DNA of 35,200 nucleotides from Oscillospiraceae bacterium. Its GTDB lineage: Bacteria; Bacillota; Clostridia; Oscillospirales; Oscillospiraceae. The notes beneath the pieces are model-generated. The model was not told the DNA's origin and ran no database searches. It saw only the letters and a program-made list of their open reading frames with translations. The first letter of the stretch is position 1; each line of letters starts with the position of its first letter. Shown in pieces: positions 9,056 to 23,735 of the stretch. Where the stretch lies: contig JAFQNL010000039.1 in assembly GCA_017395935.1 (NCBI GenBank), positions 1-35,200 on the forward strand, read 5' to 3'. The translations under genes were made by a program, and so were the position numbers.

Positions 9056-10879
9056 ATGTCCCGGTTTGACGCTCATAACGGCTTTGTCCATTTCGTTTTT
9101 GCAAACGAGGACCTGTACTGCCTCAAAAGCCTGATGGCGCTGGATCTGGAGGGGTATCTCTACTACCTGCTCAAGCGGCAGGGCTATCGGGGGATCTATT
9201 TTGTAGGCCGGGAGGAGGAGCGGTTTGCTGTCTCCACCTATGACGCGGCCTCGGAGGAGCTCTATGCCCGCAGCGACATGGGCGCCTTTATGACCAAAAT
9301 GATCGGCCTGTTGGGCGGCAAGGATGAGCAGCGGAGAGGCCGGACCACCGTTCCGGTGGCCAATGCCGAGATGCTCTCCCGAAAGTGGTTCCCCATCCTG
9401 CGCAAGGAGCAGGAGCAGGCCTTTGTCTTCCGGCTGGACGTCTTTTGCCAGATGTTCTCCAAGGACTACCACTGGTACTTAAAAGAACTCATCCGTCTTG
9501 GCCGGCAGCAGCCTCAGGGCAAGCGGAATATCCTTGTTCTGGTGGCGCCCATTGCCGCCAGTGAAACGGCCCGGCAGCTGCTGGACGAGTCGGGCGTGTT
9601 CCATATTACCGACCGGGACGGCAACAGCCTCTGCTGGGAGATTCAGTCGCTGCTCCGGGGAGACCGGAATATCCGCCTGTATGAGCAGCTCCAGCGGGAG
9701 CTGGATGAGCGCTGTCTCTTCCTCAACTCCTTCGATCGGCGGCAGCTTCGCTCGCTGGTCAGCTATCACTATCTGATCCGGCAGCAGGAGCAGACTGAGG
9801 CCGCCTTTATTGAGGACGTGGCCGACCTTGCCTACTGCTGGTACCATTCTCCTGCCTTCCGGGCGGCGGCAGGCCCCCTCTTCTCCCAGAACGAGCGGCA
9901 GGCCTTTAGCCAGCTGCTGGCCGACCTGAGCAAGGGGGGAGCGGAGCGGAGCTTCCGCAGCGCCATTTATGATCTCCGGGGGAAGGAGCAGGAGAAGTCG
10001 CTCTTCCAGCTGGTGGAAGAGCGCTACGGACTGGAGCCTGCCCGGATCTGTATGCCGGCCGACGATCTGATTGCCAGAAAGACACGGGTGATCAAGGTCA
10101 GACCGGGCATCCTGCCTCAGGAGCAGAATCGGCGCCTGCACCATATTATCTCTGAGTTTCAGATCCAGCGGAGCCGGATCATGCCTGAGGAGCTGACCGA
10201 TCTGCTGCTGGACTGCGTGGGCGAACTGGAGAGCGCGATCTATCGCCGGGATATCTCCACTGTGGGCCATGTGCTGACGGCGCTGGAGGAGGCGCTGCAG
10301 GACGAGCTGACCTACGGAGAGCGGGAAAAGGTGATCTGGGAGAGCCGAAAGACGATGATCCGCCTCTCCGAGGCCAATTTCCATCTGGATCAGCGGAGAA
10401 AATCCTTCCTGGCCCAGAAACAGAACTACCTGTCCCAGATGGCCCAGCTGCGCCGGGAGATCGAGGAGAACGAGGCGGTCTGTGCCTATCTGGAGCCGGA
10501 GGATCCCCGCCGGAGCCAGCTGGCCGAGCTGAAGGCCAGCTTCACCCGACTTTATCAGGACTGCCGGAATCTGGATTTTACCATGACTCAGGATGTCAAG
10601 ACCAGCAACGCCAACGACAACTCTATACGCAAGTTGGATCTCTCCATTGCCGCCCTCAAGCAGCCTGATGTCAAGGATCTGACTCAGGTGCTGAAGACGG
10701 CGCAGGAGATGCTGGTGGATGTGGAGACCGAGCGACTGAGCGAACAGCGTGAGATCGAGGATCTCAACGATAAGATTAACTATACCTTCCGGGAGCTGGC
10801 TGCCATGGACGAGCTGCCCAATGCTGCCGAGCGCTATGAGGCGGCAGTCCGGGAGCTGGATCAGTTGATGAGCAACTGA
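9056..10879 (+). CDS. Unrecognised 607-residue protein with C-terminal coiled coil (operon gene 1)
   Basis: I do not recognise this protein. Residues 1-400 are a mixed globular region without signal peptide or membrane segment. The stretch RNILVLVAPIAAS near residue 157 resembles a buried strand of a P-loop or AAA-like fold and is echoed by FAILVAPDTES in operon gene 9, but no Walker A is present; a catalytically dead ATPase is possible (speculative). From about residue 430 to the end the sequence is helical with coiled-coil character, rich in Gln, Arg and Glu, and ends in a short amphipathic stretch (ELDQLM). The start is an ATG 5 nt after GGAGGTG. It is the first gene behind the operon promoter and the next gene follows after 40 nt. 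Confidence 0.75.
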   Translation: MSRFDAHNGFVHFVFANEDLYCLKSLMALDLEGYLYYLLKRQGYRGIYFVGREEERFAVSTYDAASEELYARSDMGAFMTKMIGLLGGKDEQRRGRTTVPVANAEMLSRKWFPILRKEQEQAFVFRLDVFCQMFSKDYHWYLKELIRLGRQQPQGKRNILVLVAPIAASETARQLLDESGVFHITDRDGNSLCWEIQSLLRGDRNIRLYEQLQRELDERCLFLNSFDRRQLRSLVSYHYLIRQQEQTEAAFIEDVADLAYCWYHSPAFRAAAGPLFSQNERQAFSQLLADLSKGGAERSFRSAIYDLRGKEQEKSLFQLVEERYGLEPARICMPADDLIARKTRVIKVRPGILPQEQNRRLHHIISEFQIQRSRIMPEELTDLLLDCVGELESAIYRRDISTVGHVLTALEEALQDELTYGEREKVIWESRKTMIRLSEANFHLDQRRKSFLAQKQNYLSQMAQLRREIEENEAVCAYLEPEDPRRSQLAELKASFTRLYQDCRNLDFTMTQDVKTSNANDNSIRKLDLSIAALKQPDVKDLTQVLKTAQEMLVDVETERLSEQREIEDLNDKINYTFRELAAMDELPNAAERYEAAVRELDQLMSN

Positions 10880-10919
10880 GACCGGAGGGAGACGACAGAT
10901 CCGGAAAGGAGGAAGCGGA

Positions 10920-12347
10920 ATGTATGCGGGCGCGACCATTTCCGATGGTATGCTCTGCCTGTATGCGGTGGCCTCTCAGGCTGTGCAGCAGGATGTAAGC
11001 AAGACGGGAAAACTTTATATCTCCGGCGCCGGCAGCAAGCAGGGCAAGACGAAAAACTGCTTCCTCCGGGTACAGATGGATCAGATCAGCCGGACTGAGG
11101 TGGAAAACGCCTTTCTGCGGCTGAGCGAACGGATCGGAGAAAAGACCGTAGACAAGCTGGTTCTGGCTGTGGGAAAGGAGACTCTCCAGCAGCGCACGGA
11201 CCGGGAGCAGCTGCTCCGGCTGTGCCGCCAGCTGGTCCAGATTGAGGCGGTAGAACAGGTTAGTCTGACTGCCGCCGAGACCGTCCTCTTCTGTCGGGAC
11301 TGGCAGCGGGAGAACGGCAGAGGCTATAGCGGCTATCTGCTCCTCTTCCGGCTGTCCGAGCACGGGGCGCAGGCCGAACTGCTGAAGATCAAAGAGCAGA
11401 AGAACCTGATCTTCCGGGAGGAGTCAGTAAAGATCGAGGTGCCTCTGGCGGGACTGGAGAGCAAATTCTACAGCCGCACGGCGGCCGAGGCGCTGTCCAC
11501 CTCTCCTGAGCGGCTGACGGCAGGCCGACAGGCAGAGCTGGTCAACGCGGCTCGTCGGACCATCAATGCAAACAGAATGGCCATCAATCAGATCTTTGAC
11601 GAATACGGCACCGGCTGCCCCGAAGATCTGGAGATAGAGCTGAAGGACCAGAACTGGCGGGAGAAGCACGCGCCTCTGACCTGCCGCCATATTCTGACAG
11701 CCTATGAGGCGGTTATCCAGCCCAAGCTGGCACAACTGCTGAAGAGCGTAGAGCGGGAGCTGCGGGAAAAAAACGTCCCGTGGAGCAGCCGGAGACAGAG
11801 CCAGTTCCGACTGGCCTTTGAGGGAGGACTGTCCAACTGCTGGCTGGTACAGAAGCAGGTGGCCGACTTCTTCCGGCTCAGTACCATGGATGCCCGGCTC
11901 TCCCGGATTAACCGGCAGGGCCTTTTGGAGATCCATTCAGGGGCCATGGGAGCCTCCATGCTGGCAGCCGGCCGGATGGAGATGGGAATGCTCTCCCCCT
12001 GTGACGTGACCATCCTCTCTCAGGACGAGGAGGGAAAGCAGGTCCGGGACACGGTAGTAAAAAGACATCAGCTGCTGGCATGGGGCCGGATCAACTATCC
12101 CCTCTGGCCGGGAGACGGTCAGCCGGTCACATATTTAATCAATCCCGGAGAAGCGATCCGGGTAGAGCTGGACTGGAAGGGCGGCCAGAAGAAACGGGAG
12201 TATGCCCTCCAGCTTACCCAGCTGGGCAGCTGGACAGCACGGCTGGGCCTGTCTCTGAACGAGCAGGGCAAATGGAGCCTCCACGGCGTCCGGTGCGATC
12301 CGGACACAGGCAGCTGTCAGGGCGAGGAAGAGATCGTCCCCCTCTGA
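10920..12347 (+). CDS. Degenerate Hsp70/actin-fold (ASKHA-like) protein (operon gene 2)
   Basis: A 475-residue protein whose central layout can be followed against an Hsp70 nucleotide-binding domain. KLVLAVGKETLQQRTDREQ (79-97) sits where Hsp70 has its 'VPAYF..AQR' strand and helix; SLTAAETVLF (115-124) where it has 'NEPTAAAL'; a strand LLLFRL follows. EGGLSNCWLVQKQVADFF (301-318) corresponds to the 'GGSSRIPxVQxxVxxFF' adenosine region and GAMGASMLAAG (341-351) to 'AVALGAAIQAG'. The phosphate-1 DLGTT and phosphate-2 DLGGGT glycine motifs are absent, so nucleotide hydrolysis is unlikely. The C-terminal ~110 residues may be a beta-rich domain. AGGAGG precedes the ATG. Role is unknown; a scaffold or client-binding adaptor is inference. 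Confidence 0.65.
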   Translation: MYAGATISDGMLCLYAVASQAVQQDVSKTGKLYISGAGSKQGKTKNCFLRVQMDQISRTEVENAFLRLSERIGEKTVDKLVLAVGKETLQQRTDREQLLRLCRQLVQIEAVEQVSLTAAETVLFCRDWQRENGRGYSGYLLLFRLSEHGAQAELLKIKEQKNLIFREESVKIEVPLAGLESKFYSRTAAEALSTSPERLTAGRQAELVNAARRTINANRMAINQIFDEYGTGCPEDLEIELKDQNWREKHAPLTCRHILTAYEAVIQPKLAQLLKSVERELREKNVPWSSRRQSQFRLAFEGGLSNCWLVQKQVADFFRLSTMDARLSRINRQGLLEIHSGAMGASMLAAGRMEMGMLSPCDVTILSQDEEGKQVRDTVVKRHQLLAWGRINYPLWPGDGQPVTYLINPGEAIRVELDWKGGQKKREYALQLTQLGSWTARLGLSLNEQGKWSLHGVRCDPDTGSCQGEEEIVPL

Positions 12348-12389
12348 AACCGGGGAAGGACGGCCACAGAGAGAAAAGGGTAGATACCG

Positions 12390-14345
12390 ATGAAATTTTC
12401 CAGAATCAAAGACGATCTGGCTCAGCTGGAGCGGAAATCGGACGTGACGGCGGCCGACGTGCTCAACTGTGTCTATGATCTCTGTCAGGATATCCAGACG
12501 GATACAGGAAGCCCTGTAGAGCGGAAGGAGCCGGGCAGCGGCGATGATCTGAGCCGAATGCTGCCATGGGTGGGCCGACTGATCTGCCGGCTCTACCAGA
12601 AGGGGGAGAGCCAGATTATGAGCCCTGTCCTCCGGCAGCGCCTGAGCGAGATTGGCGCGGAACTAACCCAGCTGGAAGGAAAGATCCAGAACGCCGAGGG
12701 CGAGAGCAGCCGTCTGGCCGAGCAGGAGCGCCAGCTTCAGGACAAGAAGACCAAGCTCCGGAAGAATCAGGAGCTGATCGCCCAGATCAGAGCCCGGTGC
12801 GCCGAGCTGGAGACGGCCAATGAAGCTGCCCAGACAGAGGACGTGCTGCCCCTGTACAGCCGGTGGGAAGAACTGAAGCAGCGCCAGCAGGAGCTGCGGC
12901 AGGAGTGCGAGAGCTGCCAGAGCGAGATCGACGCGCTTACCGGAAAAGTGGGTGAACTGGAGGCGGAGAACAGAAGCCTCTCCGACGAGGCCGGAGCGCT
13001 GGCGCGGCGCAATGAGCAGGCCATGGAGCTTCGTCAGCAGCTGACAGAGCAAATGTTCCAGACCCAGCTGCAGCTGGAGCAGTGGGAGCAGGAACGGGGC
13101 ACGCTGGATGAACGAAAGCAGGCCCTGGAGGAGTGTTGCCGGACAGCCGGCCAGGAACTGGACAGGCTGAAGGAACAAGTCCTCCGCCCGGTAGAAGCGT
13201 CGCTGGGTCTGCTGGAGCAGGAGCGACAGACCCTGCTGGAGCAGCAGAGTCAGCTGGAAGACCGCCGCAGCCACCTTCAGCAGCAGCTGGAGCGGCAGAG
13301 GCAGGAAAACGAGACCCTCCAGACCCGCTGCCGTGAGGCAGAGGATCAGGCGGAGGAGCAGGAAACCCTCCGCGCTGCGCTGGAAGAGAAGCTGGCGGGC
13401 GTCCGGACCCGGACGCAGAGGGGCAAGGACGAGCAAATGGAGCTGGATGACCGGCTGGCCGCCGCGCTCTCGGCTTGTCAACAGCTGGAACAGGAACTGC
13501 TCCCCCAGCACCGTCGGCAGCTGGAAGACCAGCAGGGCAGACAGATGGCTCTGGCCGGCCAGCGGGAAAAGCTGGAAGAGAGCATCCGGAGTCTGCAGGA
13601 GAACATCTCGGCGCTGGAACAGACCATCGGTCGGGACGAGGACAACTTCCGGCAGCTGGGTCGGCAGCGTCTGGAACTGGAAGAGAGACGCAGTCAGCTG
13701 ACAGCGGACCGGAACAGACGCAGCGGCGAATGCGACGGCCTGCGGCAGAAAATCGAGCAGCTGAACGAAGAGATCGCCCGCCGGGACTTCGACCGGGTCA
13801 GAAGAGATCTGGAGGCAGTTCTTCGGGAGAAGGAAGGGCTGCTGGAGGAGTGCCGCCGGTTGGAGCGGGAGCTGATTGGCCAGCGGGAAGCGGCAAAGGA
13901 GCAGCGGGCGACTGCCCAGAACCTCATTGGGCAGAAGAAGACCGACCTTGCCGCCATGGAGCAGGCCCGGCAGGAAACCCAGACGGCTGTGAGCAAGCTG
14001 GATGCCGAACTGACCCGGCTGAGCAAGGACCGCAGCCAGCTACTGGCCCAGCTGGAACAGCTCCGGCAGGAGCGGGACGAACTGGTGCTCTGGTTTGGAC
14101 AGACGGATGCCCGGCGCTGCCGGGAGGAGATCGACCGGCTCTTTGCCCGGGTAAGACAGATGAAACAGGCGCAGGAATCTCTGCGCGGAGAGTACCGCTT
14201 CTTTGCCCAGACGTACGGCATGACCGATCAGGAGTTGGAGGAGAAGCTGGCCTTCCAGACCAGCATCGACCAACTCTCCCAGCAGCTTGAGCGCTTCCGG
14301 GAGCAGTACCGGCAGCTGCTGCAGAGCTTTGGCGGCGAGGTGTAA
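12390..14345 (+). CDS. Long coiled-coil protein, no ATPase head (operon gene 3)
   Basis: A 651-residue protein with a small N-terminal globular region (about residues 1-85) and then an almost unbroken, Gln/Glu/Arg/Leu-rich heptad pattern to near the end (about residue 620). It resembles the arms of SMC, golgin or myosin-tail proteins but has no Walker A, no ABC signature and no hinge, so it is not an SMC protein. It has no signal peptide or membrane segment and should be cytoplasmic. A fully extended coiled coil of this length would span many tens of nanometres, suiting a tether or spacer. The ribosome binding site is weak (AAAAGGG). Gene 4 starts 4 bases after its stop. Such repeats attract false family hits, so no name is given. 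Confidence 0.75.
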   Translation: MKFSRIKDDLAQLERKSDVTAADVLNCVYDLCQDIQTDTGSPVERKEPGSGDDLSRMLPWVGRLICRLYQKGESQIMSPVLRQRLSEIGAELTQLEGKIQNAEGESSRLAEQERQLQDKKTKLRKNQELIAQIRARCAELETANEAAQTEDVLPLYSRWEELKQRQQELRQECESCQSEIDALTGKVGELEAENRSLSDEAGALARRNEQAMELRQQLTEQMFQTQLQLEQWEQERGTLDERKQALEECCRTAGQELDRLKEQVLRPVEASLGLLEQERQTLLEQQSQLEDRRSHLQQQLERQRQENETLQTRCREAEDQAEEQETLRAALEEKLAGVRTRTQRGKDEQMELDDRLAAALSACQQLEQELLPQHRRQLEDQQGRQMALAGQREKLEESIRSLQENISALEQTIGRDEDNFRQLGRQRLELEERRSQLTADRNRRSGECDGLRQKIEQLNEEIARRDFDRVRRDLEAVLREKEGLLEECRRLERELIGQREAAKEQRATAQNLIGQKKTDLAAMEQARQETQTAVSKLDAELTRLSKDRSQLLAQLEQLRQERDELVLWFGQTDARRCREEIDRLFARVRQMKQAQESLRGEYRFFAQTYGMTDQELEEKLAFQTSIDQLSQQLERFREQYRQLLQSFGGEV

Positions 14346-14348
14346 GCG

Positions 14349-14855
14349 ATGACGTGCAGAATTTGCGGCGCCCAGCGGCCGGAGGGAATGAGCCGATGCC
14401 CCAAATGCCGGTTTCCCGTGCTGCGCAGCTTTGGCAGTCAGGGACAGGCTGAGCGGCAGAAGCTGGAGCAGCTTTGGAAGAAGACCCATGGCTATGACCG
14501 GCTGAGCGGGACCGAGATTGGCGTTCTGGCCTATTTCTGGGACCGTGACAGCGACGGCAAGGTACGGGAGAGCAGCCGGTATCGGGTTTTGCTTCCCGCA
14601 GACAAGGAGCTGGATCAGCAGCTGCTGTGGCTCAACTGCTTCTTTGCCCGGACAAGCCGGGAGGAATATCTGCAGCTGCCCCTGCGTTTTGTCCGGGGCA
14701 GAGAGGTCCGGGAGCAAACGGTCCGAATCCGGTGCCCGGCAGACAAGGGGCCGGGCTTTTGGAACGTGGCTCTGGCAAAGACCGACGATGGACAGCTCAG
14801 GATTGCTCTGGGCGGTCCCAGAAACTATGAGCAGTCAATCTGTGATATCCCCTGA
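14349..14855 (+). CDS. Zinc-ribbon protein, 168 residues (operon gene 4)
   Basis: An N-terminal zinc ribbon (C3, C6, C17, C20; CxxC-x10-CxxC) is followed by a Gln/Lys helix and a C-terminal mixed region of about 120 residues that I cannot assign. It starts with a repeated pattern of strands and has no membrane segment. The ATG is only 3 nt past the stop of the coiled-coil gene, so translation is coupled. The ribbon probably holds a structural zinc and mediates protein contact. Three more zinc-module proteins are encoded later in the same operon. Confidence 0.75.
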   Translation: MTCRICGAQRPEGMSRCPKCRFPVLRSFGSQGQAERQKLEQLWKKTHGYDRLSGTEIGVLAYFWDRDSDGKVRESSRYRVLLPADKELDQQLLWLNCFFARTSREEYLQLPLRFVRGREVREQTVRIRCPADKGPGFWNVALAKTDDGQLRIALGGPRNYEQSICDIP

Positions 14856-14866
14856 TGGGGGGATAT
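14845..14866 (+). other. Mid-operon RNA hairpin across the stop codon of gene 4
   Basis: ATATCCCC and GGGGATAT form a perfect 8-bp stem with a 6-nt loop that contains the TGA stop. No T-run follows, so it is not a standard terminator. It lies in the largest spacing of the operon's first half and could be a processing or stability element that separates genes 1-4 from the rest. Confidence 0.45.
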
Positions 14867-14923
14867 TCCTGAACATAGAAATTAAAAGTGAACCATCCCA
14901 ACACTACTGAGAGGAGAATCAAT

Positions 14924-16009
14924 ATGGGCTCGTTAGATGTTTTCATGAATACCGCGGCTTCTGTTTTCGGCAAAAAAAAGAAGGAGCAGTCCCCCCAGGA
15001 CAAGGCTGCCAAGGACAGACAGGAATGTAAGGATATTGCCTCTGTCCTCGGCAAAGTCCGTTATAAGGACTATTCCGACCGGATCGCTCCTGAGAAGATG
15101 GAGCACTACAAGGAACTGGGCGCCAGTCTGACCACTCTGATCGGCAACTCTTCCGTCATCCGGCTCCCCGCCGAAGATATCAACAGCCAGCTCAAGGCCA
15201 TTGCCGAGTATCTTCAGGACGCCCTGTATAACGGCAGTGCCCGGACGGTGGAGCATACCCTGCGGGCGCTGGATTACGGCATCCGTGAGGCCCGGAAGGA
15301 TCTGCCTGAGAAGGATATGGAAAAGATGGAGCGGATTCTCAAGGAGCGGGTAGAGTGTCTGGGCGCCTACCGGAGCGTAGTGGAGATCTCCAGTAAGGCT
15401 GACAAGCTGGATGAAGTTATCCGGGTTCAGATGAGCAAGCGGCGCAAGGACGCCGAGGAGCTCAAGAGCGCCTGCAAGGAGCTGCAGAGAAAGATCAAGG
15501 AGCGTCCCGATCTGGTTCAACAGCTGGAGGAATACGGCCTGAGCAGCAATCTGCTCCGGGGCGAGGCCAAGGATCTGGATACCGAGCGTGTCCGTGTGAT
15601 CCAGCTGGGCGAGAACGTGGAGCAGCTTCAGGCTCTGATTGCCACCAACCGGGCAGCCCTGCAGCAGGATCTGTCTACTATGAATACGCTGATCATTCAG
15701 CTGAGCCAGAAGAATGTGCTGCTGGATGACGAGACCCTTAACGCTCTGCAGGAGCAGCAGGAGCGGCTCAAGAGCGAGCTGATCCGTCAGGACGAGCAGA
15801 TCCGGGAGATGGAGAAGCTCAACCACGGCTTCACGCTGGCCATTCGGGAACTGGGCAGCTCCCCCGAGGCAGTCAACGACGTCATCCGTCACGAGAAGGA
15901 ATACGGCGAACTTCTGGCCCGTATCGAGGCCGAGGAGGAAGGCCGCAAGCTTGGTCAGCAGCTCCTGCGTCAGGCAGAAAACGAGCAGAAGCAGACCCTG
16001 AGCAACTGA
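14924..16009 (+). CDS. Helical protein with basic amphipathic N-terminus (operon gene 5)
   Basis: A 361-residue, nearly all-helical protein. The first ~20 residues (LDVFMNTAASVFGKKKK) make an amphipathic helix ending in a lysine cluster, a typical membrane-contact element and similar in style to the next gene product (MGIMDKIFKPKK). The rest alternates helices with a charged coiled-coil stretch near residues 150-210 and 260-310; the C-terminus is hydrophilic. I do not recognise a family. It might be another ESCRT-III-like or PspA-like coat protein, or an adaptor; TelA was considered and not supported. A GTG at 14888 is in frame, but GAGGAG lies 7 nt before the ATG at 14924, so the latter is chosen. 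Confidence 0.7.
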   Translation: MGSLDVFMNTAASVFGKKKKEQSPQDKAAKDRQECKDIASVLGKVRYKDYSDRIAPEKMEHYKELGASLTTLIGNSSVIRLPAEDINSQLKAIAEYLQDALYNGSARTVEHTLRALDYGIREARKDLPEKDMEKMERILKERVECLGAYRSVVEISSKADKLDEVIRVQMSKRRKDAEELKSACKELQRKIKERPDLVQQLEEYGLSSNLLRGEAKDLDTERVRVIQLGENVEQLQALIATNRAALQQDLSTMNTLIIQLSQKNVLLDDETLNALQEQQERLKSELIRQDEQIREMEKLNHGFTLAIRELGSSPEAVNDVIRHEKEYGELLARIEAEEEGRKLGQQLLRQAENEQKQTLSN

Positions 16010-16038
16010 CGGCAGTTTGGAAAGGATGGTAAACCGAT

Positions 16039-16689
16039 ATGGGAATCATGGATAAGATCTTTAAGCCCAAGAAGAGCCGCAGCGAGGTCATTCTGGATCT
16101 GGGCATTGAGCTGAGACGTCTGGAAGAGCGCTTTGAGGTGCTGATCGAGGGCGAACTGCGCACCATTAAGTATAATCGGAAGAAGGGAATCTCCAGCACC
16201 CGGTCTGTGGATAAGCTGAAGAACGCCTACTACAGTCTGCTCATTATCCGCCGGGCCAAGGAGAACCTGCGGGATATCCGTACCACGGGCGAGCTGACCA
16301 AGAGCATGAACGAGATGGGCGCCGCCCTTAAGGTGCTCAACGGCATCTCCGGTCAGTCTGTCCATGTTCGCAGATGGCTGATCAACTACAACGTTCAGGC
16401 TATGGACGCCAGCGCCGAGCGCCGGAGCGACGGCATCAAGCAGGTCTTCCCCGAGTCTATCAATGAGCTGGTGGGCGACGACGTGGTGGAGCGTCTGATC
16501 AGCGGCGAGAGCCTGGAATCCTGCCTCTCCGGCAGCGACGAACTGCTGGACGAGACCGGCGGCATGGGCCTGAAGTTTACTGATGAGCTGATCAGCCAGA
16601 TCAACAGCCTCTCCGGCGGCGATGGCACCGGACTTGACGAGCAGATGGACGCCGTCAACGCAGCCATGCGTTCTCTCCGGGACGAATGA
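16039..16689 (+). CDS. ESCRT-III/CHMP-like protein A (operon gene 6)
   Basis: A 216-residue protein with the layout of eukaryotic and archaeal ESCRT-III subunits. It has a short N-terminus with hydrophobic and basic residues (MGIMDKIFKPKK; compare CHMP4 starting MSVFGKLFG), a basic helical hairpin at about 15-105 with IELRRLEERFEVLIEGELR and TTGELTKSMNEMGAALKVLN (82-101; compare Vps2 'QMTRSMSEATGLLAGMN'), a further helix 108-135, then an acidic half with LLDETGG. The last 14 residues (MDAVNAAMRSLRDE) are an amphipathic tail like the MIM1 motif that binds MIT domains. ESCRT-III proteins polymerise on membranes and are remodelled by Vps4. The next gene is a paralog and the one after it a Vps4-type ATPase. 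AAAGGATGG precedes the ATG. Assigned by hand alignment, so the fold is likely but unproven. Confidence 0.65.
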   Translation: MGIMDKIFKPKKSRSEVILDLGIELRRLEERFEVLIEGELRTIKYNRKKGISSTRSVDKLKNAYYSLLIIRRAKENLRDIRTTGELTKSMNEMGAALKVLNGISGQSVHVRRWLINYNVQAMDASAERRSDGIKQVFPESINELVGDDVVERLISGESLESCLSGSDELLDETGGMGLKFTDELISQINSLSGGDGTGLDEQMDAVNAAMRSLRDE

Positions 16690-16690
16690 T

Positions 16691-17257
16691 ATGCTGGGCC
16701 GTAAAAAAACGCTGGACCAGAACGAGCTTAAGAGCCGCCTCTTCCAAACGCAGATTGAACTGCGGCGGCTCCACGAGCGATTTGAGCAGCTGATGGAGCA
16801 GGAGCTCCGGGAGGCCAGACGTCAGCGGAGCGCCGGCGAGGGACGGCCTGCCAACTATGAGCGGATCAAACTCATCTACCGTCTGCTTCAGGTGACGGAG
16901 AAAGCCTACCAGCAGACCAAAGCCATCCAGACCACCGACCAGCTCAACCGGCTGACCAACGAGCTGTCGGCTGTGCTGGGTCAGCTCAACGGCCTCTCGG
17001 CCGCCAGCCCGAGCCCCAAATCCGGCCAGATCCGGCGGCAGATGGAGCGGATGGACCGGCAGGCCCAGCGCCGGGAGGAGGCTCTGACCTCCATGGCCGG
17101 CGGTCTGAACGCCGGCGGCACCGACTTCGATCTGGAGCGGCTGCTGGAGGGAGAGGGACTGGAACGAGAGGAGCCCCGGGAGCGGAACGCGCTCAGCGGG
17201 GACGAGGAACTGGAGCGGATGAACAAGAAGCTGAGCGCCCTCATAGATCAACTCTAA
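16691..17257 (+). CDS. ESCRT-III/CHMP-like protein B, paralog of A (operon gene 7)
   Basis: A 188-residue paralog of the preceding product: IELRRLHERFEQLMEQELR (22-40) matches IELRRLEERFEVLIEGELR, and IQTTDQLNRLTNELSAVLGQLNG (79-101) matches the equivalent block of protein A. It begins with a basic stretch (MLGRKK), has the same helical hairpin, an acidic region rich in Glu and Gly (145-172), and ends in LERMNKKLSALIDQL (174-188), which follows the core MIM1 pattern LxxRLxxL with K for R. The ATG is one base past the stop of gene 6 with only a weak binding site, so translation depends on gene 6 and a fixed ratio is likely. A pair of distinct subunits recalls the Vps2/Vps24 co-polymer (inference). 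Confidence 0.65.
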   Translation: MLGRKKTLDQNELKSRLFQTQIELRRLHERFEQLMEQELREARRQRSAGEGRPANYERIKLIYRLLQVTEKAYQQTKAIQTTDQLNRLTNELSAVLGQLNGLSAASPSPKSGQIRRQMERMDRQAQRREEALTSMAGGLNAGGTDFDLERLLEGEGLEREEPRERNALSGDEELERMNKKLSALIDQL

Positions 17258-17273
17258 GCAAGGAGGATCAGAC

Positions 17274-18530
17274 ATGGACGACGATTACATCGGCAAAATG
17301 CAAACAAAGGAAAACCTCTGCCTGGCCAATCTCCAGAAGGCAGAGGAGGAATATGAGCGAAACGGAAAGCATACCAAGGAGGAGTGCGTCTACCTCCAGC
17401 GGGCAGCCAACCTCCGCTATGAGATGGCCCGTATGAGCGTGGGCGAGGAGCGGCTGTATCAGCAGCGCAAGCTCCGGGAGATCAACGAGCGGATCTTTAA
17501 GATCATTAAGATTCTGGATCCCAAGCTGGCAGAGCAGATGGCTCAGAAGAAGGCTCCGGCCAAGGCGGAGCCCAAAAAGACTGCCGGAAGCCCGGTTTCC
17601 AACCCGGTTACCGCAGGCGAGAACTCCGACGATGTGGCCGGCTGGTTCAAGGAGGCTCCCCGGCACAGCTTTGAGGACGTGTCTGGCATGAGCGATCTGA
17701 AAGAGCATCTGAAGGAGTGCATTACCGACACCCATCTGCAGGAGCTTAAGGACTATCTGAAGCTGAAAAAGCTCCACTCCTTCTTCTTTATTGGCCCTCC
17801 CGGCTGCGGTAAGACTTATATTATTGAGGCCTTTGCCCATGAGCTTATGGACCAGAACTATAAGTACCTCTCTCTGGTGGGCTCAGATATCCTCAGCCGC
17901 TATGTGGGCGAGGCAGAGAAGATCGTTACCCGGCTCTTTGAGGAGGCGGAGAAGAACGCGCCCTGTATCGTCTTTATCGACGAGGTGGACGGCGTGTGCA
18001 AGAATCGCTCTCTGCCCAACCTGCCCGAGTATGCCGCCTCCATTACCACGGCATTCCTCACCGGTTATAACCGGATCAATGCCTCGGACAAGCCCATTAT
18101 CTTCATCGGCGCCACCAATTACCCCAATCAGGTAGATGACGCCATGCTGGACCGTGTGGAGCTGATCCGGGTCCCCTTCCCCGACCGGGACGCCAGAGAG
18201 TCGGCCTTCCAGCGCCAGCTGGGCAAGCTGATCACTCTGTCGGAGGATCTGAGCTTCGGTTATATGGCTGAGATGACCGAAAGCTATAACTACCGTGACA
18301 TCGACCGCCTCTGCACCCGGCTGAAAAACGACCTGCTCAAGGACGTGCTCCGGGAGTATGGCAACGAAAAGGATGCTCTTTGGGCCCTTAAGAGCGGCGA
18401 ATATACCGTGTCCCGTGCCCTGTTTGACAAGGCCAAGGCCGCCTGTATTGCCACGCCCAAGGACGAAATCCAGAAGGAACTGGACGAGTGGGAAGAGCGC
18501 TTCAAGATGGGCGCTGCCAGCCAGGGCTAA
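17274..18530 (+). CDS. Vps4-like AAA ATPase with MIT-like N-terminal domain (operon gene 8)
   Basis: A 418-residue AAA ATPase. Residues 10-82 form three amphipathic helices of the size and spacing of an MIT domain; 90-125 are a Lys/Ala/Pro linker; 130-330 are the AAA core. Motifs: FEDVSGMSDLKEHLKE, Walker A GPPGCGKT (174-181), pore loop SRYVGEAEK (208-216; Vps4 has SKWMGESEK), Walker B IVFIDE (232-237), sensor 1 GATN (279-282), then VPFPD as in Vps4 'IPLPD'. The arginine-finger segment is reduced to a single Arg (LDRVE, R294). The C-terminus ATPKDEIQKELDEWEERF (393-410) matches the Vps4 C-terminal helix; the Vps4 beta-domain is missing, as in katanin and spastin. AAGGAGG precedes the ATG. It should pull subunits out of ESCRT-III polymers; the neighbours fit this. 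The AAA call is secure, the MIT call less so. Confidence 0.85.
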   Translation: MDDDYIGKMQTKENLCLANLQKAEEEYERNGKHTKEECVYLQRAANLRYEMARMSVGEERLYQQRKLREINERIFKIIKILDPKLAEQMAQKKAPAKAEPKKTAGSPVSNPVTAGENSDDVAGWFKEAPRHSFEDVSGMSDLKEHLKECITDTHLQELKDYLKLKKLHSFFFIGPPGCGKTYIIEAFAHELMDQNYKYLSLVGSDILSRYVGEAEKIVTRLFEEAEKNAPCIVFIDEVDGVCKNRSLPNLPEYAASITTAFLTGYNRINASDKPIIFIGATNYPNQVDDAMLDRVELIRVPFPDRDARESAFQRQLGKLITLSEDLSFGYMAEMTESYNYRDIDRLCTRLKNDLLKDVLREYGNEKDALWALKSGEYTVSRALFDKAKAACIATPKDEIQKELDEWEERFKMGAASQG

Positions 18531-18533
18531 ACG

Positions 18534-19613
18534 ATGGGGGACTACTATCATGACCTTCCCCGGCTCAATCGCCGGGAAGTCTGGCTGTCCAACGTTTTTC
18601 AGGACCCGCCTCCCCAGCAACTGGAGACGGGAGAGCAGGCTTCTTACTGGACCCGGATTATGGCGGGGGCTCTGCCAGACGAGGATCTGGACGAGATGCT
18701 GGAGATTCCCGCTGCCCGGTGCTACCTGTTCTGCGGCCCTCTGGGTACCGGACGAAAGACGGTGGCCGTGGCCACTGCCGGCAGTCTGGGCAGACTGGGG
18801 TACCGCTTTGCCTTGCTGACCGCCTCTGACTTTCAGGGGCTGGACGGGGAGACCCTCCGGGACTGCATGGAGGGCCTGTTCGAGCTGGTGCGGCCGGGAG
18901 AGCCGGTCTGCATGGTCCTTGACGGCGTGAACGAGTGGGAAAACCGGGAGCAGGTCTGCCGGCTGCTGGCCGGCGGCTTCGCCCGGAGCAAGGCGCTGAA
19001 TCTGCCTCTGTTTGCCATTCTGGTGGCCCCGGATACCGAGTCGGTAGGGGACACCCTGTTGAGCCAGATGACCGTCTGCGGCTTTACCCCGCCGGGAGAA
19101 GAGGAACGGACGGCGTTCTACCGGGAGGGAATTAAGGATAACTGGCTCTCCCTGAAGCAGGGCATTACCGCCCTTGACCTTGCCAAGGAGACGGAAGGCC
19201 TCAACTATTACCAGCTCAAGCAGACCCTCTACTGGATGCGCCTGATTCTCAAGGGTGAGGCTGTAGCTGCCGCCGGCAGCACCAATCCCAGAGCGGTCCG
19301 GGAGCAGCTGCTGTCCAAGTCGGTTCGGATCGACACGGAGAAGTTCCGTGCCATCGTCCGTCGAATTCGTCAGGATAAGCCGACCCCTGCGCAGCAGATT
19401 CAGGTAGTGCCTCAGCCTCAGCTGACTGCGGCCGCGGCTTACCAGATGCCTCCGGTATCTATGGGCGGCGTCAGCCAGCAGACAACCGTCTATCGCCCGG
19501 CGAATATCCGGCCGGGCAGCGCGGTGGATTTTTCCGCCCTGAAGATGGCCGACACCATGAGCCAGTTCCAGTCGGCTTTGGATCAGTATGCCAAAAAGCT
19601 GGATGAAATTTGA
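18534..19613 (+). CDS. Degenerate P-loop/AAA-like protein with MIM-like tail (operon gene 9)
   Basis: A 359-residue protein with a P-loop GPLGTGRKT (68-76) and a hydrophobic strand ending in VCMVLDG (125-131), where the Walker B Glu is replaced by Gly; the following strand ends VAPD instead of sensor-1 GATN. An ATP-binding but poorly hydrolysing protein is likely. After a helical lid (210-275) comes a Pro/Gln-rich linker (about 285-335) and a C-terminal helix ending LDQYAKKLDEI. That tail has the same spacing as the tail of gene 7 (LERMNKKLSAL), which suggests it also docks onto the MIT-like domain of gene 8. The ATG is 3 nt past the stop of gene 8, so the two are coupled. Confidence 0.65.
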   Translation: MGDYYHDLPRLNRREVWLSNVFQDPPPQQLETGEQASYWTRIMAGALPDEDLDEMLEIPAARCYLFCGPLGTGRKTVAVATAGSLGRLGYRFALLTASDFQGLDGETLRDCMEGLFELVRPGEPVCMVLDGVNEWENREQVCRLLAGGFARSKALNLPLFAILVAPDTESVGDTLLSQMTVCGFTPPGEEERTAFYREGIKDNWLSLKQGITALDLAKETEGLNYYQLKQTLYWMRLILKGEAVAAAGSTNPRAVREQLLSKSVRIDTEKFRAIVRRIRQDKPTPAQQIQVVPQPQLTAAAAYQMPPVSMGGVSQQTTVYRPANIRPGSAVDFSALKMADTMSQFQSALDQYAKKLDEI

Positions 19614-19867: not shown

Positions 19868-19899
19868 TTGTGAGAAGATAAGGCAAAGTGGAGGACGTA

Positions 19900-20373
19900 A
19901 TGACAATTGAAATAATCGGCCTGTTGGTAGTGCTGTTTATCATCTACCGCTGTCTGACGGCCAGAAAACGGAAAAAGAAGAGGGAAGAGGAGGCAGCCAG
20001 AGCCGTTACCAAAGCCGCCGCTCAGAAGAAGGCTCGCGAGGAAGCTGAGCGGGCGATGAAAGCGCGGATCAAAGCGACGGAAGAAGCCAAAGCCTCGACA
20101 GGAAAAAAGACCAGTGAGCCAAAGAAGCCGGAGACGGTGAAGAAGACCGAGCCGAAGAAAAGCTCCACCAGCAAGCTGGTCATCAATATGAAAGAAGACG
20201 CCGGCCTGAAGCGGACTGCCGCCGCAGTCGCACCGCCGGTGGATACCGCTATTATCTACAGCTACGACCACTCCTACGCAGCCAGTCAGGGACTCTGGGT
20301 CTGCCCCCGGTGCGAGACCACCAATCAGAGCTCCAGCCGGTACTGCTGCGTCTGTAATGGTCAGCGAGGCTGA
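19900..20373 (+). CDS. Single-pass membrane protein with RanBP2-type zinc finger (operon gene 11)
   Basis: A 157-residue protein. Residues 3-17 are a membrane segment directly followed by a dense Arg/Lys cluster, so the rest should face the cytoplasm. A charged Ala/Lys/Glu helix (25-65) and a Lys/Pro/Thr linker (66-95) lead to a C-terminal finger W133-x-C135-x2-C138-x3-N142-x6-C149-x2-C152, an exact match to the RanBP2/NZF pattern. In eukaryotes such fingers bind RNA, Ran or ubiquitin; here the ligand is unknown. GGAGG lies 5 nt before the ATG at 19900; an in-frame GTG at 19888 overlaps that site and is rejected. Likely a membrane anchor for the complex (inference). Confidence 0.75.
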   Translation: MTIEIIGLLVVLFIIYRCLTARKRKKKREEEAARAVTKAAAQKKAREEAERAMKARIKATEEAKASTGKKTSEPKKPETVKKTEPKKSSTSKLVINMKEDAGLKRTAAAVAPPVDTAIIYSYDHSYAASQGLWVCPRCETTNQSSSRYCCVCNGQRG

Positions 20374-20387
20374 GAGGAGGAAGGGAA

Positions 20388-21080
20388 ATGTACTGTAAAA
20401 GCTGCGGCTATCAGCTGGACAGCAGAGCTGCCAGCTGCGCCCATTGCGGCGCCCCGGTGAGTGGACTGGAGGCTTGCGGCGGCTTCTGGGGGCTGGTCGG
20501 TGAGCCAGAGCGGCCGGCTGTCGTTCCGGTCGTGGCTGTGACCCCCGATCCTGTTTCCAGCCCTGCCAGACCGGAAGAGACGGGCTCTGCCCCTGACAAC
20601 GAAGCAGCGGGCAGACGGACGCGTCAGACAGAACGGACCACGGCCCAGTTTCCCACCCTTATTAAGCTGCTGCTGGCCCTGTGCGGGCTGCTGCTCATTC
20701 TGGTTCTGGTGCTGACTGCCGCACTGCTGGGAGGCAAGGCAGAACGGTCGGCGCAGGACGCTTCTTCCGCCCGACTGGAAGCAGAGCTGGAAGAGAGTGC
20801 CCGGAATGCAGAGGCGCTGAGACAGGAAAACGACGCGCTGGCGGGGGAGAACCGGCGGCTGGAACAGGAGCTGAACGAAGCTCTGCGGGAAAAGGCACAG
20901 GCAGAGGACGCCCTTGCTCTGACTCTGGAGGAAGAGGCAGAGCCGGAAGAGGATGGGGCGCTGGCAATGAATGAGCCGGAGGCCGATCAGACTGAATCCG
21001 GCCAGACGGCAGGAGTCCACCTTCCCTCTGACGCCGAAGGGGAGGAAGAAACCGCTGTCATCGCGCCTATGGGTCAATGA
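20388..21080 (+). CDS. Zinc-ribbon, membrane-spanning, coiled-coil protein (operon gene 12)
   Basis: A 230-residue protein with an N-terminal zinc ribbon (C3, C6, C17, C20; YCKSCGYQL type), a Pro/Ala/Thr-rich linker (40-88), one strong membrane segment (91-114), a coiled coil (about 125-180) and an acidic tail. It lacks a signal peptide; the ribbon probably stays in the cytoplasm and the coiled coil lies outside, but the opposite orientation cannot be excluded. GGAGGAAGGG precedes the ATG. With gene 11 it is one of two membrane proteins in the operon and may connect a cytoplasmic machine with the envelope. Confidence 0.75.
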   Translation: MYCKSCGYQLDSRAASCAHCGAPVSGLEACGGFWGLVGEPERPAVVPVVAVTPDPVSSPARPEETGSAPDNEAAGRRTRQTERTTAQFPTLIKLLLALCGLLLILVLVLTAALLGGKAERSAQDASSARLEAELEESARNAEALRQENDALAGENRRLEQELNEALREKAQAEDALALTLEEEAEPEEDGALAMNEPEADQTESGQTAGVHLPSDAEGEEETAVIAPMGQ

Positions 21081-21106: not shown

Positions 21107-21802
21107 ATGGGAAGCAATCATCATCGACTGACATACGCAGTGGACCTGGTCTTCTGCATTGACGCAACGCTGAGTATGGATCATATCCTTGATATGGTCA
21201 AAAAGAACGCGCTGAACTTCTACAGCGATCTGACCGCTCTGATGACCCAGAAAAATAAGACCGTCGAGAAGCTGCGTATCCGCCTTGTGGCTTTCCGCGA
21301 CTATATGTACGACGGCAAAGAGGCTATGACCATGACCGACTTCTTCCAGCTGCCTGAACAGGCTGCCAATTTTGAAGCCTGCGTCCGGAGCATCCAGCCC
21401 AAGGGCGGCGGCGACGATCCGGAGGACGGTCTGGAGGCGCTGGCCTATGCCATGAAGTCCAACTGGAACCGGGATGCCGCCCGGAGCCGCCATGTTATCG
21501 TGGTTTGGAGCGACGACGGCACGCATAAGCTGGGCTACGGCAAAAAAAGCACGTTCTATCCCAAGGGGATGCCCGCCGACTTTGCCGCCCTCTCCGACTG
21601 GTGGGGCTCCCGGGCCAATCCCAGCGAGATCATGGATCAGGCCTCCAAGCGGCTGCTTCTGTTTACCCCGGATAAGCCGGGCTGGTCCGACGTGCGGGAG
21701 AACTGGGATCGGGTCATCCACTATGTCTCTGAGGCCGGCAAGGGTCTGGAACACTGTGACTATGAGATGATTCTGGAAGCGATTGCCAACTCTATCGCCT
21801 GA
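21107..21802 (+). CDS. von Willebrand factor A domain protein, TerY-like (operon gene 13)
   Basis: A 231-residue protein consisting of a single vWA domain without signal peptide, hence intracellular. The metal-ion-dependent adhesion site is present in variant form: DATLS (19-23; DxTxS instead of DxSxS), a GGGDDPEDGLEAL loop and an Asp after a strand (VVWSDDGTH). Intracellular vWA proteins encoded next to a PP2C phosphatase and a protein kinase form the TerY-P triad described for tellurium-resistance-type systems, where the vWA protein assembles complexes through a bound metal. The phosphatase and kinase genes follow directly. AAGGAG lies 6-7 nt before the ATG. Confidence 0.87.
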   Translation: MGSNHHRLTYAVDLVFCIDATLSMDHILDMVKKNALNFYSDLTALMTQKNKTVEKLRIRLVAFRDYMYDGKEAMTMTDFFQLPEQAANFEACVRSIQPKGGGDDPEDGLEALAYAMKSNWNRDAARSRHVIVVWSDDGTHKLGYGKKSTFYPKGMPADFAALSDWWGSRANPSEIMDQASKRLLLFTPDKPGWSDVRENWDRVIHYVSEAGKGLEHCDYEMILEAIANSIA

Positions 21803-21815
21803 GCGGACCGCTGTT

Positions 21816-22802
21816 ATGAAGAGAACGATGAAGCAGTGGGGCGACTGCCTCTATGTATTCAGCAAGGAACAGATCCCCGGCAAAGGTGAGGACAGCCAGT
21901 TTGCTGCGCTGGACGAGCACATGGCTGTGGTGGCTGCTTTTGACGGACTGGGCGGCTCCGGCGCCCGACGTTATGACCGCTACGGAAAGCATACGGGGGC
22001 CTATATGGCCTCCCGAATGGCCAGCGGCGCCCTGCGAGACTGGTACTATGCGCTGAGCCGGGCTGCAGCAGAGGGACGCTGCCGGATCCCGGAGTCGGTA
22101 GAGACCTATATCCGGACCGGCATGGACCTGTGCAGCAGCATGGCAGATCAGCGTCGGGGCGGCCTGATGGGCTCCATGATCCGGGATTTTCCCACTACCG
22201 CCGCCATGGCCTTTGCCATTGGCCGGGAATATGGAGCCGAGCTCTGGGTGGGCTGGGCCGGTGACTCCCGGGTCTACCTGCTGGATGCCATGGGACTTGC
22301 CCAGCTGACGGTGGATGACAACGAGGAGCAGGACGCTTTTGCCAATCTCTATGCCAGCTCTGCCATGACCAATGTGATCTCCTCCGACGGGAAATGGACG
22401 CTCAACTGGCGGAGATACCGGATCGACCATCCCTGTCTGGTCTTTGCCGCTACCGACGGCTGCTTTGACTACCGGCCTACGCCTATGGAGTTTGAGCATA
22501 TGCTGCTGGAGAAGCTGATGCAGGCAAAGAGCCCCGCCGCGTTTGAAGAGGGGCTGGAGCAGGCAATGGGCTTCTGGGCAGGAGACGACTATACGATGGC
22601 TATGATCAGTATGGGCTTTGGCAGCTTCGGACGGACACAGGATATGCTGCGCCGGCGCTATGAGACGCTGACGGAGGACTATATCCGGCCTCTGGACGCG
22701 CTGGAAGCGTCGGAGGACAGCGGAACGATCCGTCAGGGCAGAGGACGGCTCTGGTCGGTCTATCGGGAAAACTATTACCGCTGTCTGGAAGGAGGGAAAT
22801 AA
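21816..22802 (+). CDS. PP2C-family Ser/Thr protein phosphatase (operon gene 14)
   Basis: A 328-residue PPM/PP2C phosphatase. The metal-binding motifs are all present: GED (24-26), DGLGG (43-47), GDSR (149-152), TDG (213-215) and GDDYT (256-260), so it should be an active manganese/magnesium enzyme. About 60 further residues after the core are helical and unassigned. No membrane segment. The ATG at 21816 is 13 nt past the vWA stop and has a poor binding site; the ATG at 21828 is possible and would also keep all motifs. It presumably reverses phosphorylation by the kinase encoded next, which starts exactly at its stop codon. Confidence 0.9.
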   Translation: MKRTMKQWGDCLYVFSKEQIPGKGEDSQFAALDEHMAVVAAFDGLGGSGARRYDRYGKHTGAYMASRMASGALRDWYYALSRAAAEGRCRIPESVETYIRTGMDLCSSMADQRRGGLMGSMIRDFPTTAAMAFAIGREYGAELWVGWAGDSRVYLLDAMGLAQLTVDDNEEQDAFANLYASSAMTNVISSDGKWTLNWRRYRIDHPCLVFAATDGCFDYRPTPMEFEHMLLEKLMQAKSPAAFEEGLEQAMGFWAGDDYTMAMISMGFGSFGRTQDMLRRRYETLTEDYIRPLDALEASEDSGTIRQGRGRLWSVYRENYYRCLEGGK

Positions 22803-23735
22803 GTGGCAAATGGCAAATTAAATCAGGGACAACTCTGCCAGTATGAGCTGCTTGAGTCCTTCCAAAATCAGAGCGCCGGCAGCTGCCGGTGGACAACGGG
22901 GAAAAAGGGCGGCCAGACCTACTTCATTAAGGAGTTTCTGGAACCGGTCTATCCGGTGAAGGAGCTGTCCAGCCCGGAGCGAACCCGCCGGCAGAAGGAT
23001 TACTGCAAGCGGTTTGAAAAGAATAAGAAGCGGCTGTATATGACCATCTCTGCCGTCTCCGACGGCAATCTGGTCCGGGTGGAGGAGTTCTTCCGTTACG
23101 GATCCAAGTACTATATGGCCATGCCTATGGTCAACGGCTGTCAGGTAGATCTGCAGAAGTTGAGCTTCGACGAGCGGCTGCTGGTCTGCAAGACGCTGGC
23201 TCACAGTCTGCTCTGCCTCCATCGGGAGGGCATCGTCCATGCCGATATCAAGGCTTCCAACGTGATTATGCACCGGACCCGGAGCAACAGCGTGGTGGCC
23301 AAGCTGATTGACTTTGACTGCAGCTTCTTTGAGGATGATCCTCCCACCAGCGAGGAGGATCTGGGCGGCGATCAGGTCTATCTCTCTCCCGAAGCCAACT
23401 GCTTCATTATGGGAGAAGAGGCCAGACTGACCTGCAAAATGGATGTCTTTGCCATGGGACTGCTCATCCACGAGTATCTCACCGGCAACCTCCCCTGGTT
23501 CGATCACGATCAATACGAGACGGCCAGCGAGGCGGTTCTCAACGGCGAGGAGCTTCAGGTGGCGCCCAGCCTTCCTCATAAGTATCAGACTATGATCCGC
23601 CAGATGGTCAACTGCGATCCGGACAAACGGTGGACCATGGCTCAGGTCTTTTCTCTGCTGGCTGACAAGCAGCCTGAGCCGACCCGGGCTTTTGACCCAG
23701 CCAGAGCCTTCTACTCCGGCGGCGATCTGCTCTGA
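22803..23735 (+). CDS. Eukaryotic-like protein kinase, divergent (operon gene 15)
   Basis: A 310-residue cytosolic protein kinase without membrane or PASTA domains. Motifs: the ATP-binding Lys in YFIKEF (K43), catalytic loop HADIKASN (146-153; Ala for the usual Arg, with D148 and N153 kept), metal site DFD (170-172; Asp replaces Gly of DFG), YLSPE in place of APE (193-197), and DVFAMGLLIHEYLTG. The Gly-rich loop is not obvious. Loss of the Arg of HRD suggests it does not need activation-loop phosphorylation. Start is GTG, 6 nt after GGAGGG, immediately next to the phosphatase stop. As part of the vWA/phosphatase/kinase triad it probably phosphorylates other operon products (inference). Confidence 0.9.
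   Translation: MANGKLNQGQLCQYELLESFQNQSAGSCRWTTGKKGGQTYFIKEFLEPVYPVKELSSPERTRRQKDYCKRFEKNKKRLYMTISAVSDGNLVRVEEFFRYGSKYYMAMPMVNGCQVDLQKLSFDERLLVCKTLAHSLLCLHREGIVHADIKASNVIMHRTRSNSVVAKLIDFDCSFFEDDPPTSEEDLGGDQVYLSPEANCFIMGEEARLTCKMDVFAMGLLIHEYLTGNLPWFDHDQYETASEAVLNGEELQVAPSLPHKYQTMIRQMVNCDPDKRWTMAQVFSLLADKQPEPTRAFDPARAFYSGGDLL

Follow-up and report, generated by a model that had tools for sequence, protein, structure and literature searches.

The window analysed here, a 35,200-nucleotide stretch of contig JAFQNL010000039.1 from an Oscillospiraceae bacterium (assembly GCA_017395935.1), carries at 16039–18530 three adjoining genes that encode two small proteins, E1 and E2, and an AAA ATPase. A preliminary description of the same DNA had likened them to eukaryotic and archaeal ESCRT-III and Vps4. 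Open reading frames (ORFs) of 216, 188 and 418 amino acids are present where that description placed them, separated by 1 nucleotide (E1–E2) and 16 nucleotides (E2–AAA). E1 and E2 are paralogs, as it had claimed: a genome search with E1 as query recovers E2 at E 6.2e-18, with 35% identity over residues 19–161, and both translations contain the blocks IELRRL.ERFE.L.E.ELR and TT..L....NE...LNG.

Scanning contigs from 84,980 species genomes with a profile of the AAA, we kept 80 loci, of which at least 35 beyond the window (L008–L042) clearly belong to the same AAA family, with 37–66% identity and E values of 2e-85 or better; the next AAAs are set apart by a gap, at E 1e-35 and worse. Thirty-four of these 35 loci are from Clostridia (Lachnospiraceae, Oscillospiraceae/Ruminococcus, Eubacterium and others) and one is from an "uncultured bacterium". 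Relatives of E1 and E2 occur in 34 of the 35, giving 38 small proteins, or 40 with the window's two; in L024, whose contig begins about 0.9 kb before the AAA gene, one query found no small protein. The order from small protein to AAA is conserved, with a gap of 0–173 nucleotides in 34 of 35 clusters (the window and 34 loci); the exception, L014, has a gap of 1563 nucleotides with a degenerate AAA copy in between. Degenerate additional AAA copies adjoin the intact AAA in L011:11143-11691 and L014:8978-10378. The three genes belong to a larger conserved cluster, missed by the preliminary description, which includes an Hsp70-like protein, a degenerate AAA relative and, in or beside it in 14 of the 35 loci, BrxL or a DndH-type HerA (Table 1).

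The small proteins compared with ESCRT-III and PspA

The first 100 residues are net positive in 39 of the 40 small proteins and the last 70 are net negative in 40 of 40, bearing out the basic N-terminal and acidic C-terminal halves reported earlier. A hydrophobic-aromatic and then basic N-terminus (the LF-KK pattern) is found in 26/40 small proteins, in 12/29 members of hel361, a helical protein encoded upstream of E1, in 27/61 Asgard Snf7 proteins and in 0/15 PspA proteins, against 8/249 of the remaining ORFs in these loci; we wrote the pattern once the sequences had been viewed, and the 249 are longest-ORF calls, some of them surely not genes. In eukaryotic ESCRT-III, such N-termini insert in membranes and the C-terminal tails bind MIT domains. 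Judged by their residues, the N-termini of the E proteins and hel361 look membrane-seeking.

Searches with HMMER gave no match to PF03357 (Snf7) or PF04012 (PspA_IM30) in the module's own genome, and Snf7 is absent from the 25 of 60 Pfam families listed for the 40 small proteins. A search of PDB sequences returned no solved ESCRT-III with either a 6-row or a 32-row profile, the best match of the latter being myosin light chain (0.11). Profile–profile comparison by hhalign points to archaeal Snf7, represented by 62 rows from Asgard searches (loci L088–L122; beside the seed, 61 further rows that include its own ORF). All 40 small proteins scored 39.1% in the first alignment, 55.0% in a local-pair alignment and 49.5% in match-column form, and a 32-row set without eight long, divergent members reached about 83–89% (82.6% in one run) over nearly the full length, the choice of subgroups having been explored after the first score (39%) was known. 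As a positive control, Snf7 against PspA gave 92.3%. Against Snf7, reversed small-protein profiles scored at most 2.1% and the cluster's other helical families 1.9% (hel361) and 1.0% (CC651). With the 32-row set, none of ten decoys, drawn from other families or reversed, exceeded 0.4%; a reversed profile reached 8.2% with hel361. Under block permutation, a null that tests collinear order and not fold convergence, the 32-row score of 45.3 compares with maxima of 36.1 (blocks of 28) and 29.2 (blocks of 14), and the score of 33.7 for all 40 with a maximum of 30.8 (0/200 in each case). For the claim that the small proteins are CHMP- or ESCRT-III-like, profile similarity goes beyond the permutation and reversal controls, but it drops to 3–4% once the window's own subgroup is removed, and HMMER gives no match. 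PspA was rejected as the nearest relative: it scored at most 3.6%, and 0.6% for the 32-row set, and under permutation 79/100 reached its score of 14.3.

One bacterial Snf7 match was seen in L090, in the genome of L067 (titled Actinomycetota), which was searched together with the archaeal genomes; it scored 28.6 bits with neighbours in the frame, over the cut-off.

The AAA ATPase

The third gene encodes what is, on its sequence motifs, a classical AAA with an intact ATPase site and an aromatic pore loop: Walker A GPPGCGKT, DE, GATN, VPFPD and the pore loop SRYVGEAE. Across 36 rows (the window and 35 loci), the Walker A K/T, D236, E237 and N282 are identical in all 36, R294 is present in 35 (one row is truncated) and the pore aromatic in 35. 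The pore loop, GATN and VPFPD named in the preliminary description are confirmed. AlphaFold2 predicts three N-terminal helices (residues 2–30, 35–54 and 57–81; block-mean predicted local distance difference test score 85–93 for residues 11–80). This domain aligns weakly but collinearly with archaeal MIT (2.0–15.3% by hhalign; 1/200 permutations reaches the score), and MIT is not among the families that HMMER listed for the AAA; the proposed three-helix domain of MIT size has the predicted helices and the weak archaeal match on its side, but no MIT assignment by HMMER.

Relationship to Vps4 within the ATPase itself is less specific. The AAA and archaeal Vps4 profiles align end to end, but the AAA domain is matched equally well by p97-D2, Vps4, spastin and katanin. 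The C-terminal helix matches the Vps4 type at 72–77% versus 69.7% for the CDC48-D2 tail, and PF09336 (Vps4_C) has no match in the own genome; the earlier label of a Vps4-type helix is not supported over a CDC48-D2 one, whose tails match almost as well. Free trees placed the AAA outside Vps4 on a long branch, whereas the approximately unbiased (AU) test rejects neither a clade with Asgard Vps4 (p 0.66) nor one with CDC48-D2 (p 0.65), and both constrained trees scored better than the free tree. These were quick searches on 19 of the 36 AAA domains from the window and the loci, without eukaryotic meiotic ATPases (katanin/spastin), 26 locus prefixes having been dropped for size and six more for long or odd branches. 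Placement in a Vps4 clade, as first suggested, is compatible with the AU test but differs from the free trees.

The conserved cluster and its neighbours

The cluster spans 9056–19613 in the window and is a rare one, conserved in Clostridia. Among related or evenly sampled genomes, the small proteins were found in 5/59 relatives including the own genome (three of these at E of about 5e-4), in 2/392 genomes from the order to which L016's genome belongs (itself counted), and in 1/391 genomes of the class and 1/398 of the phylum, both times the module's own. All ten genomes that were drawn from the loci and searched whole held one or two copies, pairs lying side by side. A viral or plasmid origin is unsupported in a search that covered viral contigs and plasmids but not the phage collection: no family member was found, the viral-contig scan giving distant AAAs only (best 27% identity) and the plasmids none at 1e-40.

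Table 1. Genes of the cluster and its downstream neighbours in the window, with occurrence by jackhmmer over the 35 loci, many of whose contigs are cut
Feature	Coordinates	Strand	Product	Loci
upA	9056-10879	+	607 aa; partly homologous to hel361	29/35
upB	10920-12347	+	Hsp70/actin-fold-like protein	31/35
CC651	12390-14345	+	long coiled coil, SMC-like composition; matches below cut-off only	32/35
zinc-ribbon small protein	14349-14855	+	N-terminal motif; weak Zn_Ribbon_1 match below cut-off	30/35
hel361	14924-16009	+	helical protein, FGKKKK near N-terminus	26/35
E1	16039-16689	+	putatively ESCRT-III-like small protein, 216 aa
E2	16691-17257	+	putatively ESCRT-III-like paralog of E1, 188 aa; longest-ORF start 16622
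AAA	17274-18530	+	classical AAA ATPase, 418 aa, N-terminal three-helix (MIT-like) domain
P359	18534-19613	+	degenerate AAA relative	32/35
two genes	19888-21080	+	161 aa, zinc-ribbon-like C-terminus; 230 aa, N-terminal zinc ribbon, hydrophobic segment, coiled coil
vWA-PP2C-Ser/Thr kinase	21107-23735	+	TerY-P-like triad; Pfam matches above cut-off

Although apart in the cluster, upA and hel361 form one blastp component. upA has no Pfam match above cut-off, and no known family fits either protein, 24 members giving scattered coiled-coil matches. A hel361 counterpart, f9, occurs in 8 loci, and two of these also belong to the 26 that have hel361. The upB relative in L012 matches PF00012 above cut-off (1.5e-8); the window's upB had no match in the family scan. 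The phosphate-binding motifs (DFGST, DYGGGT) kept by all seven other members of an eight-member alignment are missing from the window's upB, and this Hsp70-like protein is therefore probably not an ATPase. In L046:4318-6183, L051:9056-10840 and L071:8990-10837, other AAAs, with a protein-kinase-like N-terminal part, lie near an upB-related Hsp70-like gene; these are from Bacteroidales and Dojkabacteria. P359 and the AAA make up one blastp component, yet a canonical Walker A is present in 3/33 P359 members as against the retained catalytic residues of the AAA; in L012, P359 lies about 9 kb from the AAA.

Past P359 and a gap of 274 nucleotides, five further genes follow on the same strand in the window. 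The zinc-ribbon matches of the first two are below cut-off, and neither gene was found in the 35 loci. The last three stand as vWA, PP2C and Ser/Thr kinase genes in a row, a TerY-P-like arrangement; not found in the 35 loci, this triad was rejected as a core part. Seven loci (L026, L028, L030, L032, L034, L035 and L036; for example L026:11672-13138 and L034:11719-13224) carry BrxL between the AAA and P359, and seven others (L018 and L037–L042; for example L038:11991-13949) have a HerA matching the C-terminal part of DndH, which follows P359 in five of them and stands between P359 and the AAA in two. Neither was found in 21 of the 35 loci, several on cut contigs. RCC1-repeat proteins lie near the cluster in 10/35 loci (for example L039:496-1638), and DUF285/leucine-rich-repeat proteins were seen in 4/35. 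In the anti-phage system IetAS, an IetA-type AAA stands beside a subtilisin-like IetS. IetA models match AAA residues 103–351 at best (2.7e-23), as other AAA models do, and no protease was found above cut-off among the scanned cluster proteins.

Discussion

We propose, as the best single reading and with about an even chance of being right, that E1 and E2 together with the AAA constitute an ESCRT-III/Vps4-like membrane-remodelling machine, possibly acting in phage or envelope defence. Both halves lean independently towards their ESCRT counterparts, the small proteins away from PspA, with each match at the detection limit. On this reading E1 and E2 would be very distant ESCRT-III-like proteins; we favour likeness in how they work, membership of ESCRT-III or Vps4 not being proven. 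Since the matches lie at the detection limit and that of the small proteins comes mainly from one subgroup, we do not file the E proteins or the AAA as members of those families.

In such a machine, the LF-KK N-termini would anchor E1 and E2 on the inner face of the cytoplasmic membrane, where the proteins could polymerise through their helical hairpins. The MIT-like domain would dock the AAA on the acidic C-terminal tails of E1 and E2, and the ATPase may then thread them through its aromatic pore, the polymer being remodelled or dismantled as Vps4 does. Four near-constant partners, namely the Hsp70-like protein, the coiled coil, hel361 and the degenerate AAA, probably serve in sensing and scaffolding. 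The variable BrxL, DndH-type HerA and TerY-P-like genes suggest a response to phage or envelope attack, which the machine would then answer.

Several results weigh against this proposal. None of Snf7, MIT, Vps4_C or a solved ESCRT-III was matched with HMMER. How well Snf7 matches varies with the rows included, from 3.4 to 89.8% across subgroup omissions: the score falls to 4.3% once the window's subgroup of 13 is removed and to 3.4% when the long members are left out as well. Taken alone, the second paralogs including E2 (n=5) scored 79.7% and the window's group (n=13) 53.0%, while the other four of the six subgroups scored at most 2.2%; likewise, only the shorter Snf7 length class matches (83.6% versus 2.1%). 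Foldseek with the E1 model gave no match below E 1 (best E 1.0), and designed bundles, gp41 and BAR domains scored at least as well as ESCRT-III. The predicted structure is consistent with ESCRT-III but tied with unrelated helical bundles, and the ESCRT-III rows, mixed as they are with unrelated folds, were not counted as proof. For the AAA, CDC48/p97 heads the NCBIfam, PDB-sequence and Foldseek lists, and sister-like AAAs of Bacteroidales and Dojkabacteria adjoin Hsp70-like relatives of upB, no E protein having been found there.

The AAA findings, joined by a C-terminal helix that is not Vps4-specific and a Snf7 match that leans on one subgroup, speak for a different account, in which the AAA would act together with the Hsp70-like protein as a single-ring unfoldase of the CDC48/p97 type. 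E1 and E2 would then be its coiled-coil adaptors or substrates and no relatives of ESCRT-III, their likeness reflecting convergence of basic helical hairpins. We regard this as a serious but less probable alternative: permuted and reversed helical profiles fall short of the Snf7 score, hel361 and CC651, helical proteins of the same cluster, barely score against Snf7, and the LF-KK N-termini point to the membrane. Nucleic-acid defence, in which the coiled coil, the Hsp70-like protein, the AAA pair and BrxL or HerA would act on invading DNA or RNA with E1 and E2 as structural adaptors and not membrane remodellers, draws on the seven loci with BrxL inside the cluster, the seven with HerA in or beside it and the pairing of comparable components in CoCoNuTs (PMC11090510, available part), but is improbable given no nuclease or methyltransferase above curated cut-off among the scanned cluster proteins, the membrane-seeking look of the E and hel361 N-termini and the majority of loci with neither BrxL nor HerA, cut contigs included.

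A more far-reaching version of the ESCRT-III/Vps4-like proposal, which we consider doubtful, is that the cluster represents a true bacterial ESCRT-III/Vps4 branch apart from PspA, with an Hsp70-like sensor and exchangeable defence motors (BrxL, DndH-type HerA, TerY-P), that would remodel or seal the membrane during phage attack. A near-constant pairing of ESCRT-III-like proteins with an AAA, in the window and at least 35 genomes, would provide a compact bacterial model of membrane work by a polymer and its disassemblase. It would also bear on the origin of such pairs, whether older than archaea, transferred, or arisen twice, and the association with BrxL and HerA would connect membrane remodelling with phage defence.

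In the mainly open literature consulted on bacterial ESCRT-III/Vps4, TerY-P, Hsp70/MoxR/vWA and BrxL, the available parts of which include PMC10936438, PMC7159879 and PMC12839542, we found no description of this cluster. The preliminary description knew of no characterised bacterial CHMP–Vps4 operon, a statement to be qualified by computational reports of VPS4-like AAA transfers to bacteria and of some bacteria in which PspA or Snf7-clade genes adjoin genes for AAAs, with ATP-dependent membrane remodelling as the proposed role (PMC11237479, accessible part). As far as that part of the source extends, its cases differ from the window: in the transfers a TPR/6TM protein takes the place of Snf7, the PspA partner has two AAA domains, the Snf7/AAA operons contain ABC transporter, permease and OmpA-type genes, and a cluster with Hsp70, BrxL and HerA is not described.

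Type III-A CoCoNuTs, restriction systems that according to the available text of PMC11090510 combine coiled coils, Hsp70-like domains, a vWA-PP2C-kinase triad (TerY-P) and a CDC48-like AAA, resemble the cluster in these components. They centre, in the same text, on McrB/McrC homologs and HEPN nucleases, which were not recognised in the window's cluster, and their CDC48-like AAA has two tandem domains, unlike the AAA described here. With bacterial PspA/Vipp1, E1 and E2 would share the role of a membrane-bound helical polymer, although the profile of the small proteins does not match. In the archaeal ESCRT-III/Vps4 systems (CdvB/CdvC; Asgard Snf7/Vps4), too, an AAA whose N-terminal domain has three helices stands next to one or two small helical proteins, and Asgard Snf7 shares the LF-KK N-termini and a profile match beyond permutations. 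No ESCRT-II-type gene was recognised among the scanned cluster proteins. In contrast to its archaeal counterparts, the module is bacterial, lies below HMMER detection, has an AAA domain that is not Vps4-specific, and is accompanied by near-constant extra partners: an Hsp70-like protein, a coiled coil and a degenerate AAA.

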